IMG/VR virus record: IMGVR_UViG_3300042876_000519
Location: 1 to 22,002 of that record
Length of the DNA stretch: 22,002 bases
Strand: one strand, 5' to 3'
Source: a virus
The first letter of the stretch is position 1. Each line of letters begins with the position of its first letter. Positions 2,750-14,908 of this stretch are shown here, piece after piece. The notes beneath the pieces are model-generated. The model saw nothing but the letters and a program-made list of their open reading frames with translations. It did not search any database and was not told where the DNA came from. Made by a program: the position numbers and the translations under genes.

Positions 2750-3379
2750 TCAGGCCAACTGTTCGGAGAGGGATGCCGCCCAAGTGTCTTCGTGGACGAT
2801 CTTGATGGGCAATCCCTGGGCTTTGTAGAGCATGGCTTTCTCGATCTTTGTGCCAAAGCTTCCGTGCTTCCATTCGGGACTGCCCATTCCGCCGACCACA
2901 ACGTAGGCCAGCTTCTTGGTGATGTTGTCGGCAATCAACCCGCCGCGCCGCTCAATGGCGGCCGCGCAAGTGGATCGTGGTCCGAACACAAAGTCGCCAG
3001 TCAAACAGAACAGGCGGTCCCGAAAGGTGACGGCCTGGATGGCGTCGAGCGCGAGACCGGAAACGTGTGTTGGGGCCGAGAGTTCTTCGGAGGTGCCGCC
3101 CACGAGTTGTTGCAGCAGTTCGGTTAGATGCGCGCGCTCTTCGCTCGTTACCTGGCCGTCAGCCAATACTTCTTGCACGCGCGCATGAATCACGTTTCCG
3201 GGCCATGCTGCGGCAATGGAAGAGTTGGCATTCAACCAATCAGCAAGAAACTCAATCTCCTTGTCGTGCAACCTTCCATCCGCTAGCACTCCCTGAGCGA
3301 TGCCAAGCAACGCGCCACAACCTCGGGCCAAATCATTGCGAAATGACACGCTTTGGCGTGCGAAGAATTCAGTGCTCAT
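2750..3379 (-). CDS. BRCT-domain protein with TerB-like N-terminal region, 209 aa
   Basis: The C-terminal residues about 120-205 form a BRCT domain: FCLTGDF strand, R-x-x-C-x-A-A-I-E-x-x-G-G turn, YVVVGGMGS strand and the conserved Trp at 200. The N-terminal half is helical with two similar motifs, VLADGRLHDKE (31-41) and VLADGQVTSEE (71-81), resembling TerB-like or tellurite-resistance-type helical repeats. BRCT proteins bind phosphopeptides or DNA ends. The start is ATG 3379 with GGGGAGA seven bases upstream; the frame is open further upstream but without a site. It is downstream of the repressor gene and likely expressed in the lysogen, so a lysogenic-conversion or host-interaction role is plausible but unproven. 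Confidence 0.75.
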   Translation of the reverse strand: MSTEFFARQSVSFRNDLARGCGALLGIAQGVLADGRLHDKEIEFLADWLNANSSIAAAWPGNVIHARVQEVLADGQVTSEERAHLTELLQQLVGGTSEELSAPTHVSGLALDAIQAVTFRDRLFCLTGDFVFGPRSTCAAAIERRGGLIADNITKKLAYVVVGGMGSPEWKHGSFGTKIEKAMLYKAQGLPIKIVHEDTWAASLSEQLA

Positions 3380-3455
3380 GGTTCGGTCTCCCCTGTGGTT
3401 GATTGGCTCGGCACATATCGGCACCACCGACGCTGCCAGTCGATGACGACGGTTA

Positions 3456-4052
3456 TTACCTCGCTGGCCGTTGTTTCCCCCTTCTGGGGGATATTGCACT
3501 TGAAGGAAGGGCGGTAGATTGAGGCGCCGGGTGAGGCGTCTTGGGCGTTTGCTGAAAATGGCTCGCTCGGCGTTGCGCATCCTGAATCAGCGCTTCGATA
3601 CGGGATAGACCAAGCTGGCTATCGGCGTTGTCGACCAGTTCGGCCATGCGCTGACGGATTTCCGGGCGCATGTCCTCTGGAATGCCAATCAGTAAGGATG
3701 CCAAGTCGCGGAGCGTGCGCGCAATGTGACTAACGGCCGGGTTTGCTGCATACGAAGCAGTCGGCTCCGAGGCTTGAAGTGGGCGTTGCCCGCTTCGAGG
3801 TGGCGATCCCTCTACGCGCACGAGTTCGTCGGCGCTTAACAGCTCCTCGAGCGGGACGCCAAGAGCGCGTGCAAGCGCCGGAGCGAACTTCGACCTGCTG
3901 CTATCGCGATTCTCCAAAGCGCTGATCGTTCCGACATCAACGTCGGACTCAGCCGCTAACCTTTCAAGAGTCCACCCTCGTTGCAGCCGCAAGGCGCGGA
4001 TGCGTGCTCCCAGTGCCATCCTGGCACGGTAGACGGCCGTTGAGCGTTTCAC
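3456..4052 (-). CDS. CI-like prophage repressor, XRE family, 198 aa
   Basis: Residues about 16-72 form a helix-turn-helix of the XRE/Cro type (GWTLERLAAESDVDVGTISA, then LENR). The rest is a Pro/Ser linker, a helical segment around 105-165, and a basic tail. There is no S24 peptidase domain, so RecA-driven self-cleavage as in lambda CI is not expected; induction must work otherwise. The start is GTG 4052, with AGGTG upstream at a suitable distance. An ATG at 4019 is possible but has no spaced site. It is divergent from the YdaS/Cro-like gene with an operator between them, which is the main argument for the repressor role. Confidence 0.8.
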   Translation of the reverse strand: MKRSTAVYRARMALGARIRALRLQRGWTLERLAAESDVDVGTISALENRDSSRSKFAPALARALGVPLEELLSADELVRVEGSPPRSGQRPLQASEPTASYAANPAVSHIARTLRDLASLLIGIPEDMRPEIRQRMAELVDNADSQLGLSRIEALIQDAQRRASHFQQTPKTPHPAPQSTALPSSAISPRRGKQRPAR

Positions 4053-6131: not shown

Positions 6132-8525
6132 ATGCCGGAGTGGGGTTCCGAGAAACAGGCTCGGTGCGACAAGCTGCGCACCTTGCCGCAGGCCATGCGC
6201 GAGAAGCGCCAGTGGCTGCTGTGGCGGTTCATCGCCGACCCGAAGGTGCCGAAGCCGCGCAAGGTGCCGCACTACGTGTCGGGCCGAAAGCGCCGCGGTG
6301 CGCAGGGCAGTGTGGAGGATCGGCAGGAACTGTCGACGTTCGATGTGGCGCTGACGGAGTTCGCGCGCGGCCAGTGGGACGGCCTGGGCTTCGCGTTCCT
6401 GCCGGGCGATGGCCTGATCGGCATCGACATGGATGGCCAGGTCGACGAGGAAACCGGCGAGATCTCGGAGCGGTGCAAGGCCATCGTGGCCGCGTGCGGC
6501 AGCTACACCGAGTGGAGCCCGTCACGCAAGGGCGTGCACATCATCGTCGCCGGCGAAACGAAGACGTTCAAGGACAACAGCATCGGGCTGGAGGTCTTCT
6601 GCAACGCGCAGTTCTTCACCTGCACCGGCGAGCACTGGGAGGCCACGCCGTTCGAGGTGGCGCCGATCGACGAACGCACGCTGAGCCGGCTCAAGGCGAC
6701 GGTGGCGCAGGCCCGGGAAAAGGGCAAGGGCACCGGCGACGCGCAGCCAGTGCAGGCGCCTGCACCAGCGAAGGCGGCGAAGGCCGACGACTATGGGCGC
6801 GTCAACGATGTGGCGATGCAGCAGCTGGATGTGTGGGTGCCCGCACTGTTCCCGGCGGCGAAGAAGCAATCCGGCACGGGCGCCTGGCGCATCAGTTCGA
6901 AAGACCTGAATCGCAGCCTCGAGGAGGATCTATCAATTGCGCCCGGCGGCATCGTGGACTTTGGCATTCGCGAGGCGGATGCGCGCGAGGGCCGCAGAAC
7001 GCCGATCGACCTGGTGGTTGAGTATCAGGGCGTCAAGCCACGCGATGCGCTGATGTGGCTGGCTGGTCGGCTGGGCGTGGCCTTGACGCCGCGCCCGCAG
7101 AAGGCGAAGCCGAAGGACGACGCGCCGCCCGCCAGTGGGGCGGACACCCCTTCGCCGGGCTCCGCCGGGGAAGGGGAAGGCGGCGAGCCGCCGCCGCGCG
7201 GGCGGCGGGACTGGCGCGAGGATCTGCTAAGGCAGAACGGCGGCAAGAAGGATTGCCGCGAGAACGTGTACATGGTGCTCATCAACCACCCGAAGCTGGC
7301 GGGGCTGGTGGGCTATGACGAGTTCGGGCACCGGGTGATGAAGCTGCGAAAGCCGCCCTGGGATTCGGACGTGGGCGAGTGGACGACCAACGACGATTAC
7401 CTGCTCGGCTATTGGCTGTCGATGCAGGAGCGCTTGGTCATCAAGGCCGAAGGCACGATCGTGGCCGGCGTGGCCATGGCGGCGTATGCCAACCGGTTCC
7501 ACCCTGTGCATGAGTACCTGCATGGTCTGCCAGAGTGGGATGGCACCGAGCGCCTGGCGCATTGGCTGTCGGACTGCCTGGGCGCAGAGGACAGCGAATA
7601 CACACGCCTGGTGGGCGCATGGTTCCTCATGGGCATGGTCAAGCGCATCCTGACGCCTGGCTGCCAGATGGACTACATGGTGGTGCTGGAGGGCCTGCAG
7701 GGCAAACAGAAGTCCACCGCGTTGCGCACCTTGGTGGGCAACGACGACTGGTTCGCTGATACGCCGATACGCATTGGCGACAAGGACGCGGTGCTCAGCC
7801 TGGCCGGCAAGTGGCTGTATGAGGTGGGCGAGCTGGACGCGTTCAACCGCGCCGAGGTGACGGCCGTCAAACAGTACGTGTCGAGCCGAATCGACCGGGT
7901 GCGTGAGCCTTTTGCGCGCCGGCCAAGCGACCGCCCGCGCAGCGGGGTGTTCGCGGGGTCGACCAACCAGTCGGAGTACTTCAAGGACCCGACGGGCGCA
8001 CGGCGCTTCTGGCCAGTGGCATGCGATGGCGAGATCCAGCTCGAGCTGCTGGCGAATGTGCGCGATCAGCTGTTCGCCGAGGCGATGCATCGGCTGGCGA
8101 GCGATGACCTGGAAGTGCGGCGCTATTGGCCCACTCGGGAGGAGACCGACAAGTACCTGGTGCCTCAGCAGGAGCGCCGGGAGATCGTCGACCCGTGGTA
8201 CGAGCGCCTGGCCATCTGGCTGGACCTGCGCGAGGTCTACGGCGATTCGGGCGAGCAGATCTGTGATGTGGAGCACTTCACGTCGCACGAGCTGCTCACC
8301 AAGGCGCTGCATGTGCCGACGGATCGGATCGATGGCAGCAGGCAGATGGCCACGCGGGTGGGCATTGCCATGCACAAGCTGGGCTGGGAGAAGCGGCGCG
8401 ACGCTACGGGCGCGCGCCTGCATCGGTACTGGCGGCCCGGTAAGAAGCGTCCAGCAATGGAAGCCCAAGCTGCACCCCACGAGGTGCGGCCGGATGGCGT
8501 TCCCGAGGAGCTTTACGGTGCATAG
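6132..8525 (+). CDS. Primase-polymerase/VapE-like helicase replication protein, 797 aa
   Basis: The N-terminal domain has archaeo-eukaryotic primase motifs: IDMDG with Asp 99 and 101 (motif I), SRKGVHI with His 136 (motif II) and LEVFC near 153-157 (motif III). A helical middle and a low-complexity Pro/Gly linker (about 325-360) follow. The C-terminal half is a VapE/VirE-type P-loop helicase: Walker A GLQGKQKST (521-529), hydrophobic WLYEVGEL (561-568) as Walker B, and an Arg-rich sensor region near 585-597. It should prime and unwind at the phage origin. The start at 6132 has GAGGAG nearby. The repeat array immediately downstream suggests it is the initiator's partner or the initiator itself. 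Confidence 0.9.
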   Translation: MPEWGSEKQARCDKLRTLPQAMREKRQWLLWRFIADPKVPKPRKVPHYVSGRKRRGAQGSVEDRQELSTFDVALTEFARGQWDGLGFAFLPGDGLIGIDMDGQVDEETGEISERCKAIVAACGSYTEWSPSRKGVHIIVAGETKTFKDNSIGLEVFCNAQFFTCTGEHWEATPFEVAPIDERTLSRLKATVAQAREKGKGTGDAQPVQAPAPAKAAKADDYGRVNDVAMQQLDVWVPALFPAAKKQSGTGAWRISSKDLNRSLEEDLSIAPGGIVDFGIREADAREGRRTPIDLVVEYQGVKPRDALMWLAGRLGVALTPRPQKAKPKDDAPPASGADTPSPGSAGEGEGGEPPPRGRRDWREDLLRQNGGKKDCRENVYMVLINHPKLAGLVGYDEFGHRVMKLRKPPWDSDVGEWTTNDDYLLGYWLSMQERLVIKAEGTIVAGVAMAAYANRFHPVHEYLHGLPEWDGTERLAHWLSDCLGAEDSEYTRLVGAWFLMGMVKRILTPGCQMDYMVVLEGLQGKQKSTALRTLVGNDDWFADTPIRIGDKDAVLSLAGKWLYEVGELDAFNRAEVTAVKQYVSSRIDRVREPFARRPSDRPRSGVFAGSTNQSEYFKDPTGARRFWPVACDGEIQLELLANVRDQLFAEAMHRLASDDLEVRRYWPTREETDKYLVPQQERREIVDPWYERLAIWLDLREVYGDSGEQICDVEHFTSHELLTKALHVPTDRIDGSRQMATRVGIAMHKLGWEKRRDATGARLHRYWRPGKKRPAMEAQAAPHEVRPDGVPEELYGA
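7147..7176. repeat. Palindromic insert in the primase linker
   Basis: Arms 7147-7158 and 7165-7176 pair at eleven of twelve positions around a 6-base loop, within the codons of the low-complexity linker between the primase and helicase domains. It looks like a short GC-rich palindrome tolerated in frame. Confidence 0.5.
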
Positions 8526-8774
8526 GCGTCCAAAGTCCAACCTCGTCCAACCTACCCCGCAGAGGTTGGACGGATGGCCGAATCACCGGGCGTCAGGCCC
8601 GGGCGTCCAACCTCGTCCAACCTGCGCCCTGGGTCACGTGCGCGTGTGTGCGTGCGGACGTGCGGGCGCCCCTGCGCCCCCGCGTGTGTGCGTACGTGGG
8701 CGCAGGCCGGTTGGACGAGGTTGGACGGTTGGACGGAATAGCAACGAGGTTGGACGAATCCAGGAGGGGCGGCG
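8526..8774. repeat. GTCCAACC/GGTTGGAC iteron-like array, candidate replication origin
   Basis: There is no gene here. Four copies of GTCCAACC (8535, 8545, 8605, 8615) and five of its complement GGTTGGAC (8564, 8709, 8719, 8727, 8748) fill the gap after the primase-helicase gene; partial copies lie at 8528 and 8785. Tandem copies start 10 bases apart in three pairs. The array forms nested inverted repeats. It resembles P4-type origins, where iterons in both orientations are bound by the primase-helicase protein. A regulatory binding array is the alternative. Confidence 0.65.
8604..8727. repeat. Long inverted repeat with GT-rich loop
   Basis: CGTCCAACCTCGTCCAACC (8604-8622) is a perfect 19-base inverted repeat of 8709-8727. 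The pairing extends inward with CCTGCGCCC (8621-8629) and GGGCGCAGG (8698-8706), leaving a 4-base offset. The loop contains CGCGTGTGTGCGT twice (8641 and 8681), 40 bases apart. Confidence 0.7.
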
Positions 8775-9113
8775 TTGAGCAAGAGTTGGAGCTTCGTGAC
8801 AGAGCACATGCCAGGGGTAGTGGCAATGCTCAAGGCCAGGCGGGAGAAGGGCGAGGGGGCCTATCTCGACACCTGCTGGCGAAACGGCGTTGTTCGCGGT
8901 GAGCCGGGGTGGTTCTTCGCGTCTGAAGGCGGGGTGCACGTCGGCACGCTTTGGCCAGAGGCCGCGCAGGCATTGGTCGATCAGCGGGCGATGGCGCAGG
9001 TATTGGCCGCCAACGGTCCAGCGTTGGGGCTGCGGGACGGAAAGGGCTTTCAGGCGACGTTGGCGCCGCTGCTCATCCTCAAGCCGCAGGAGGAAGCCAA
9101 TGTCGCGGGTTGA
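8775..9113 (+). CDS. Hypothetical protein, 112 aa
   Basis: The start is TTG 8775, chosen because AGGAGGGG lies directly upstream at normal spacing; the next in-frame ATG at 8808 has none. The product is a compact alpha/beta protein with many aromatic residues (GEPGWFFASEGGVHVGTLWP) and no recognisable motif. It lies between the origin-like array and the Q-like gene, and its 3' end overlaps that gene by 14 bases, so the two are co-translated. The function is unknown. Confidence 0.65.
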   Translation: MSKSWSFVTEHMPGVVAMLKARREKGEGAYLDTCWRNGVVRGEPGWFFASEGGVHVGTLWPEAAQALVDQRAMAQVLAANGPALGLRDGKGFQATLAPLLILKPQEEANVAG

Positions 9114-10437: not shown

Positions 10438-11028
10438 ATGAGCATCAGTGTTCGAGCCATGGCCACCGAGCTGGGCGTCAGCAAGAGCCAGGTGGCCCGG
10501 GACAAGGCCGCCGGCATGCCGATGGGGGACGTGGAGTCTGCGCGGGCGTGGCGCCTGGCGCAGCACGACGTGGCGCGCACGGCTGACGGCCGCATCGACC
10601 GACCTGCGGTGCAGACGTCCGCGCCCGCGCCGCGTTCGCCAGCTGGTGAAGGCCCGCCGGCCGAGGCGGACGATGAGCCGAGCAGCGAGGACACGGCGAC
10701 CTACCGCCGCGAGCGGGCCGAGCGCGAGAAGCTGAGGCGCCAGCGCGAGGAGATCGAGCTGGCCCAGCTGCGGGGCAACCTGGTGGACCGCGCTGAGGTG
10801 GTCCGCCTGCGGTTTACCGAGTTCCGTGCGCTGCGCGATGCGCTGGGCAACCTGGGCCCGCGGCTGGCGCCCACGGTGGCGCTGGAAGCCGACGCCTTGC
10901 GCTGCGAGCAGATGTACGCCGAGGCGCTGGAGGAGGTGCTCAACGCCTTCGCCGACCAGGTGCTCACGCGCCACGTACTGGCCGACGTGGACGAGGACGA
11001 TGACGACGACGCCGCACCAGCCGATTGA
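10438..11028 (+). CDS. Terminase small subunit, Nu1-like, 196 aa
   Basis: The N-terminus is a helix-turn-helix (VRAMATELGVSKSQVARDKA, then AGMPM) as in lambda gpNu1 and DUF1441 proteins, which bind the packaging site. A Pro/Ala linker, a highly charged helical region (RRERAEREKLRRQREEIELA) and a C-terminal helix bundle ending in an acidic tail follow. It recognises concatemeric DNA and brings the large subunit. The start at 10438 is preceded by a GGGA-rich repeat that doubles as ribosome binding site. The 3' end overlaps the large subunit gene by 29 bases. Confidence 0.85.
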   Translation: MSISVRAMATELGVSKSQVARDKAAGMPMGDVESARAWRLAQHDVARTADGRIDRPAVQTSAPAPRSPAGEGPPAEADDEPSSEDTATYRRERAEREKLRRQREEIELAQLRGNLVDRAEVVRLRFTEFRALRDALGNLGPRLAPTVALEADALRCEQMYAEALEEVLNAFADQVLTRHVLADVDEDDDDDAAPAD

Positions 11029-13117: not shown

Positions 13118-14908
13118 ATGATCCGAATCAAATTCCTTGAGAACGTGCAGCCCAGCTACACCGCTGGCCAGCTGTACGACGTCGACGATTCTTTCGCGCA
13201 CCTCATGGTGTCCGGTAAGAAGGCCACGTATGCGGGCCCACTGCCCGTCGCGCAGCACGGCTCGCTCGGCGGTGACGCTGCCCTGCGCGTGGGCCGCAGC
13301 GTCGCATCCGGTGGGCTGCGCGTCGCCTTCATCGGCGCGTCCACCGAGATCCGGGCCCACCCCATGTGGCAGGTCGATGCGGCCAACTACAGCCGCACCA
13401 ACGGCATCGTCACCGCGGTGCTCACCTACACCCTGAAGGACCAGTACTTCCTGCCGGGCCACAAGATCCGCCTGGCGTGCGATCTGCGCGCCGACGTGGA
13501 GGGGGCCTTCGAGATCCTGACCTCGAGCACGGTGGCCACCACGTCCACCACCATCACCTACGCCGACCCGCGCCCCGACGTGGCGGCCGGTGCCATCGGC
13601 ACGAACGCCTTCGTGCACGACCTGCACGGCTGGACGATCACCAGCGGCTTCCCCGCCTTCGCCAACCTCGGCGTTGGTGGCGGCCTGGACATGGTCGTCA
13701 TCGCCACCGGCTCGACGAACGTCATCCGGGACTGGGACGACGCGCGCATGCAGCAGATCGTCGACCAAGGCCCGTTCGACGCCATCGTCATCGGCACCGG
13801 CATCCTTGGCAACGCCATCAAGGGCTACGGCGCCGGCGCCAACGCCACCTATCAAGGCGTGGTCGCGCTCATCAACCGCCTGCGCCGCGTCTGCGCACCG
13901 CGCATGATCTTCGTCGAGACGCTGCCCCTGTCGCGTGACGTGACGCCCACGCAAGCCGTGTTCACTGCCGCCAGCCGCCTCAATGCCCTGCTGTGGAACC
14001 AACTGCAGCGCGACTGTGCTGACGTGGCCATCATCCCCTGCGGCGAGGCCCTGGTGCAGAACTACTGCGCCTACAACGCGGCCCCCAGCACCGACGTATC
14101 CAACGGCTGGCCCGAGCAAAACTCGCTCATCCTCGACGGCGTTCACTTTGCCTTCGCCGGCTCGCGCATGCGTGGCCTGGTCATCGCCGACACGCTGCTG
14201 CGCAGCATGGGTCGCATCGTGTCGCCCGACATGGGCATGCTGCCCGCCACGCGCCAGGTCGCCACCGCGGCGGACCCTGAAGGCAACTACCACCCGAACC
14301 AGGCCCTGGGCCAGTGGGGCAACGTCGACAGCACCAAGGCTACGCTCACCGGCACCGGCATCAGCGGCGTGGGCCCGGCTGGCGCATCGTTCAACTTCGA
14401 AGCCGGCCGCGGCACCAGCACGGCCGTCGGCGCGCTGCGAACCAACCCCAGTGGCGGCACCGACTGGGTCGTCACCATCGCCGGCGCCGGCAGCTCCACC
14501 GGCTACACCGCCGCCATCGAACTCGCGCCCACCTGGCTGCTGACCGCGCTCAACGCCAGCATCAACCAGGGTCGCTCGGTGGATGTCATCCTTCCGGTCA
14601 CCCTGCAGATCAACCCGCTGAAGATCTTGTGGGTGTCCATCGAGCTGGCCGCCACCGTGGGCGGCACCGAGTACATCATCGGCTCAGCCCAGGCCGCGCA
14701 AGGCCTCTACACCATGGCTGCGCAGGGCAGGGCGATGGACGCTGGCTACAGCGGCCTCATGCGCTTCCCGCGCTTCAAGATTCCCGCTGCCGCCTACACC
14801 GCAGCGAAATTCCGCATCCGGGTCAAAGAAGTCAACGGCAGCGTGGCCTCTGGCCAGACTGTTGTCGTCGTCGGCCCAGGCCACGTGTTCCAAGTGCTGG
14901 AGGGCTGA
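13118..14908 (+). CDS. SGNH-hydrolase-like virion protein, 596 aa
   Basis: Residues 1-45 form a small domain (MIRIKFLENVQPSYTAG, then DVDDSFAHLMVSGK) of the kind seen in phage head accessory proteins. An SGNH/GDSL-type esterase core follows: FIGAST with Ser 75, NLGVGG (183-188), DAIVIGTGILGN (221-232), and DGVH with Asp 340 and His 343. The C-terminal 230 residues are beta-rich, possibly a carbohydrate-binding or trimerising part. SGNH enzymes in phages remove acetyl groups from surface polysaccharides. The start has GGAGG six bases upstream. The gene sits between terminase and portal, where lambda has no such gene. The catalytic Asn is not clear. Confidence 0.7.
   Translation: MIRIKFLENVQPSYTAGQLYDVDDSFAHLMVSGKKATYAGPLPVAQHGSLGGDAALRVGRSVASGGLRVAFIGASTEIRAHPMWQVDAANYSRTNGIVTAVLTYTLKDQYFLPGHKIRLACDLRADVEGAFEILTSSTVATTSTTITYADPRPDVAAGAIGTNAFVHDLHGWTITSGFPAFANLGVGGGLDMVVIATGSTNVIRDWDDARMQQIVDQGPFDAIVIGTGILGNAIKGYGAGANATYQGVVALINRLRRVCAPRMIFVETLPLSRDVTPTQAVFTAASRLNALLWNQLQRDCADVAIIPCGEALVQNYCAYNAAPSTDVSNGWPEQNSLILDGVHFAFAGSRMRGLVIADTLLRSMGRIVSPDMGMLPATRQVATAADPEGNYHPNQALGQWGNVDSTKATLTGTGISGVGPAGASFNFEAGRGTSTAVGALRTNPSGGTDWVVTIAGAGSSTGYTAAIELAPTWLLTALNASINQGRSVDVILPVTLQINPLKILWVSIELAATVGGTEYIIGSAQAAQGLYTMAAQGRAMDAGYSGLMRFPRFKIPAAAYTAAKFRIRVKEVNGSVASGQTVVVVGPGHVFQVLEG

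Follow-up and report, generated by a model that had tools for sequence, protein, structure and literature searches.

A probable SaPI/PICI-type iteron origin behind the PrimPol-VapE helicase gene of a temperate tailed phage

The DNA analyzed here, referred to as the window, is the whole 22,002-bp IMG/VR record IMGVR_UViG_3300042876_000519, which is probably a fragment. Its genes include a CI-like repressor and a second regulator in the opposite direction, a Q-like antiterminator, the small and large terminase, portal, capsid, tail terminator and minor tail protein. Because regulator, terminase, portal, capsid and tail genes are present, the window was assigned to a temperate tailed phage and not to a satellite; satellites are recognized by the absence of the tail genes of a complete phage, and both a tail terminator and a minor tail protein were found. 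The repeat array considered in this study is intergenic and occupies the 249-bp gap from the stop codon of a primase-helicase gene to a small ORF (Table 1). The ORFs that mechanically cross the array, such as 7903-8778, look like shadow ORFs of GC-rich DNA. The small ORF has a plausible ribosome-binding site and gave no Pfam or PHROG match, and its relatives sit at the same place in several phages.

Table 1. Positions of the primase-helicase gene, the iterons and the neighboring features in the window.
Feature	Position	Strand	Basis
PrimPol-VapE primase-helicase, proposed initiator	6132..8525	+	PF05272, phrog_15962, 7pds match
Intergenic iteron array, candidate replication origin	8526..8774	.	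uniqueness; position and layout conserved in relatives
Decayed iteron GTCCAAAG	8528..8535	+	
Iteron, left outer block	8535..8542	+	exact GTCCAACC
Iteron, left outer block	8545..8552	+	exact GTCCAACC
Iteron, left outer block, inverted	8564..8571	-	exact GTCCAACC
Iteron, left inner pair	8605..8612	+	exact GTCCAACC
Iteron, left inner pair	8615..8622	+	exact GTCCAACC
Centre between inner pairs, presumed opening and priming site	8623..8708	.	78% GC, alternation
Iteron, right inner block	8709..8716	-	exact GTCCAACC
Iteron, right inner block	8719..8726	-	exact GTCCAACC
Iteron, right inner block	8727..8734	-	exact GTCCAACC
Iteron, right outer site	8748..8755	-	exact GTCCAACC
Small ORF bounding the array	8775..9113	+	relatives in L136, L139, L142, L143, L150

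The product of the gene upstream of the array matched the VapE-like family PF05272 (E 5.5e-71) and phrog_15962 (E 2.6e-169). At the sequence level, its N-terminus resembles the NrS-1 and SaPI5 primases and its helicase part resembles 7pds. A structure model of the C-terminal 430 residues, built from 57 relatives, reached a pLDDT of 91 and a pTM of 0.85; in a full-length model based on 10 sequences the helicase core was poorly resolved. The best match of the C-terminal model was the SaPI PriRep1-dsDNA structure (7pds; Z 32.6, rmsd 3.7, 389 residues), with NrS-1 next among the fold matches (Z 15). The match to 7pds extends into the C-terminal domain (to model residue 402), and the last elements of the model, at residues 348-400, are a strand, two helices and a two-strand wing. 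As modeled, the C-terminal domain (about residues 705-770 of the protein) looks like a winged helix.

A preliminary description of this DNA had reported nine exact copies of an 8-base unit in 228 bases, with three pairs exactly 10 bases apart around a GT-rich centre. The recount recovered all nine copies of GTCCAACC between 8535 and 8755, of which four are on the plus and five on the minus strand, together with the three pairs (8535/8545, 8605/8615 and 8709/8719), and the iterons at 8719/8727 are additionally spaced by 8 bp. The start coordinate of 8528 given in that description is explained by a tenth, decayed iteron, GTCCAAAG, which begins there. The unit had also been described as unlike a known DnaA box; the consensus TTWTNCACA had no match in the window, and a DnaA-dependent origin was rejected on this ground. 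It had further been proposed that the unit be counted in the rest of the genome, where an equal frequency would speak against an origin, and no exact copy of GTCCAACC was found outside 8535-8755 in the whole 22,002-bp record. The nine copies compare with 0.83 expected, and this number was reached in none of 100 shuffles. In 200 order-3 Markov simulations the maximum for any 8-mer in any 228-bp stretch was five copies, and the real record outside 8500-8800 holds at most three copies of any 8-mer per 228 bp.

The centre between the inner iterons is GT- and GC-rich, as had been described, and its GC content of 78% is among the top 3% of the record. It shows the strongest purine/pyrimidine alternation of any stretch of equal length in the record; this property was taken as lineage-specific and rejected as a general rule for centres, because only 8 of 32 loci had a centre in the top 1% of their own sequence. 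Folded as a single strand, the centre gave a z of -2.6, and the centres of relatives ranged from z -2 to -4 in some to near 0 in others, so that folding varied among loci and a conserved hairpin is no more than a possibility. An AT-rich opening element, as found behind SaPI rep and also in lower-GC relatives, is missing from the array of the window. The GC skew, which is a weak guide in temperate phages, flips sign well away from the array, within the large terminase gene at about 12.5-13 kb; with no sign change at the array, skew gave no evidence for an origin at 8.6 kb.

The region behind related helicases was compared in two partly overlapping collections of 33 and 80 loci, to which named phages were added. 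The main test covered 64 loci other than the window after removal of near-duplicates and scored 7-mers in the 600 bp behind the primase. These 600 bp held the densest 7-mer array of the entire locus in 41 of the 64, and at least five copies of one 7-mer occurred there in 62.5% of the loci, compared to 0.8% of 996 control windows. With a span of 900 bp, which takes in a Pseudomonas-type group having the array behind an extra ORF, the count was 51 of 65 loci, the window included. Amongst 17 named phages or islands, the highest-ranking array of 12 lay no more than 400 bp behind the primase. The array-positive phages were those of Caulobacter, Lacticaseibacillus, Bacteroides, Corynebacterium (two), Staphylococcus, Fusobacterium, Lactobacillus, Paenibacillus, Marinobacter and Rhodobacter, and APSE-2; an array behind the primase was not seen in Croceibacter P2559Y, Streptococcus Taco, satellite Javan162 and contig ctHz2215. 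The SaPI stretch did not take the top rank under the strict 7-mer rule because its unit is degenerate.

Across the loci, a direct pair and its mirrored counterpart flanked a centre of about 75-120 bp, with outer inverted sites on either side. This order of orientations was broadly conserved despite the change of unit, with individual sites absent in some loci. The unit itself was uniform within each array and re-spelled between lineages, reading GTCCAACC in the window and L001-L008, CTAACCT in L010, CGTCCAC in L014, CGTCCAGCA in L023, GTCCCAC in the Pseudomonas-type group, GGTCACCCC in PS3, TGTTGCAG in Bob and GCGTAAC in L138. The similarity of the units tracked the similarity of the proteins (r 0.47-0.49, reached in 0 of 2000 permutations). 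Covariation of the unit with the C-terminal domain was no stronger than with the helicase core (partial r 0.045), and a dependence on that domain beyond overall relatedness was therefore set aside as unsupported. As a separate observation, six loci (L012, L014, L019, L023, L032 and L033) share a conserved block, ggcagttatgggaaccg...gggcctg, in the first 70 bases behind the primase; there it lies ahead of the array, and the window does not carry it.

Two natural swaps provided information about what the unit follows. The phage at L150 has a large terminase 90% and a small terminase 84% identical to those of the window. The N-terminal part of its initiator is unrelated, the matches (39% identity) being confined to query residues 358-791. 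Its array reads GTGTCTAC/GTGTCCA and contains no GTCCAACC. Because this phage shares the terminases but differs in both primase and unit, the array is tied to the primase rather than to the packaging genes. At L138, a PrimPol N-terminus 43% identical to that of the window is joined to a DUF5906-type helicase and followed by ten copies of GCGTAAC, so that the unit does not track the PrimPol part. Since this array sits behind a PrimPol fused to a DUF5906-type helicase, the origin design reaches beyond VapE helicases. Arrays of GCGTAAC/CGTAACC with this same general design were seen at L138:6723-6980 and L151:6848-7069.

The system closest to the window is the rep-ori module of the SaPI/PICI satellites, phage-inducible islands known from staphylococci and from Gram-negative bacteria. 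According to PMC7581432, which cites Ubeda 2007 for this system, SaPI Rep reads, via its C-terminal domain, iterons located directly 3' of its own gene. PICI origins always have two iteron sets around an AT-rich region 3' of rep, and a PICI rep-ori sustains a plasmid in E. coli (PMC6092414). A search with the protein of the window recovered the SaPI rep of the 2PHSA1 record (L049), and the stretch behind it has the same order of orientations as the phage arrays. The two systems share a homologous VapE helicase with the same C-terminal domain, as seen in the match to 7pds, an array directly 3' of the initiator gene (following the stop codon at 8525 in the window) and two oppositely oriented iteron sets around a centre. 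They differ in that the window array belongs to a full-size tailed phage equipped with terminase, capsid and tail genes, in the spelling GTCCAACC, in a PrimPol that is fused to the helicase, whereas the SaPI at L049 has separate genes, and in a centre that is GC-rich and alternating instead of AT-rich. Because the centre is 78% GC, the candidate origin of the window was classed as a variant of the SaPI/PICI rep-ori. A 2018 paper stated that the PICI origin organization was found in no other known bacterial replicon (PMC6092414), and the phages gathered in this study look like counter-examples. Our literature search, in which subscription journals were mostly outside the scope, turned up no publication that links VapE to iterons in phages, and earlier notice elsewhere is possible.

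Other replication systems were more distant. NrS-1 has a related N-terminal PrimPol and a helicase region of related fold, but its structural match to the helicase part is much weaker than that of 7pds. The alpha protein of P4, in which primase and helicase are fused, recognizes short repeats in either orientation without a need for DnaA, and replication of P4 needs a second distant region (crr) beside ori. The window differs in that a single compact array follows the gene, and the record, itself probably a fragment, showed no further, distant cluster of GTCCAACC. P4 had been named as the precedent in the preliminary description; repeats in both orientations are indeed common ground, but the closer precedent is the SaPI/PICI PriRep-ori, a homologue in sequence and structure. 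Cch2 of SCCmec, with its putative origin, is likewise a self-loading helicase, and its C-terminal domain binds short repeats that directly follow its gene; it is, however, a D5/Primase_Cterm helicase with three 5-nt iterons and a separate polymerase-primase (PMC7581432).

Since the position of the array, its layout, the tracking of unit and primase and the homology to SaPI Rep all agree, we consider it very probable that 8526-8774 is an iteron origin, that it belongs to the SaPI/PICI rep-ori type and that the PrimPol-VapE helicase of the phage itself reads it. Points that weigh against this reading are the missing AT-rich opening element, the GC-skew turn away from the array, the covariation of the unit with the C-terminal domain being no stronger than with the helicase core, and the VapE phages in which no array was seen behind the primase. 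The earlier suggestion of a candidate new origin is upheld by these observations as far as an origin is concerned; what is new is the setting and the variant, not the kind. The differences from the known kind are the full-size phage replicon, the freely recoded iterons and the GC-rich, alternating centre. By homology with the SaPI system, we infer that the helicase would bind the GTCCAACC iterons through its C-terminal winged-helix domain, and that the oppositely oriented inner sites would set two hexamers head to head, flanking the centre of about 86 bp. The helicase would then open this centre, the fused PrimPol domain would prime both strands, and initiation would be DnaA-independent and bidirectional.

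Repeats are frequent in packaging sites near terminase genes, lambda cosB lies close to its terminase genes, and in the window the small terminase gene (10438-11028) starts 1.7 kb downstream of the array, so that a cos or pac site bound by the small terminase was weighed as an alternative. We regard this as the least probable of the explanations considered, given that L150 keeps its terminases and changes primase and unit, that in PS3 about 7 kb separate the array from the large terminase while it still directly follows the primase, and that in VarioGold an annotated cosR end falls about 1.9 kb beyond the primase, outside the region behind it. An operator or post-transcriptional element, by which a repressor or the primase-helicase would regulate the small ORF and the late genes, or in which the inverted repeats would form an RNA structure or terminator, is also very improbable. 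The last iteron does stand just upstream of the ribosome-binding site of the small ORF and inverted copies could pair in RNA, but no terminator, promoter-like site or Rfam match was found, and the array consists of separate 8-mers in both orientations, with helical-turn-like spacing and symmetry around a centre. Additionally, in the Pseudomonas-type relatives a different ORF stands between primase and array, and in other relatives the array appears to extend into the next gene. The array may nonetheless have a regulatory side role.

Plasmid iteron clusters can act in copy control, and the absence of an AT-rich opening element and of a turn in GC skew at the array would be compatible with an array that binds the initiator mainly for copy control, incompatibility or partition, with replication beginning elsewhere. 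Against this, which we judge about as improbable as the operator, stand the absence of a second GTCCAACC cluster from the record (probably incomplete) and the fact that the homologous SaPI/PICI regions serve as origins on plasmids (PMC6092414).

The origin reading would make it simple to locate the start of replication in hundreds of phages, namely by looking behind the VapE helicase (924 phage records have a match to the protein of the window). Full-size phages from several bacterial phyla carry the array design behind their VapE helicases, a finding that links the replication modules of satellites and phages, and the loci offer a natural series of matched iteron-helicase pairs for studying how these helicases read DNA. 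The window also raises the question of how a centre of 78% GC melts. More tentatively, and with a probability we place somewhat short of even, one portable cassette of initiator and origin could be common to tailed phages of many phyla, with a fixed layout and an iteron spelling that changes with the helicase. Such a lock-and-key arrangement would avoid cross-talk between co-resident prophages and satellites, and in place of an AT-rich element the GC-rich lineage would use DNA that alternates between purine and pyrimidine as its opening site.

A few other features of the window and its relatives were recorded. Between the large terminase and the portal, a 596-residue ORF on the plus strand (13118-14908) gave no Pfam or PHROG match. 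The protein encoded at 2750-3580 on the minus strand belongs to phrog_3989; it weakly resembles NAD-dependent DNA ligase, contains a weak TerB-like stretch and perhaps has a BRCT-like domain. Among named bacterial genomes, the nearest relatives of the primase, 41-42% identical to it, are encoded by Noviherbaspirillum species (L128, L129, L130 and L131). Amongst these, N. autotrophicum had three primase matches, possibly representing repeated prophages.
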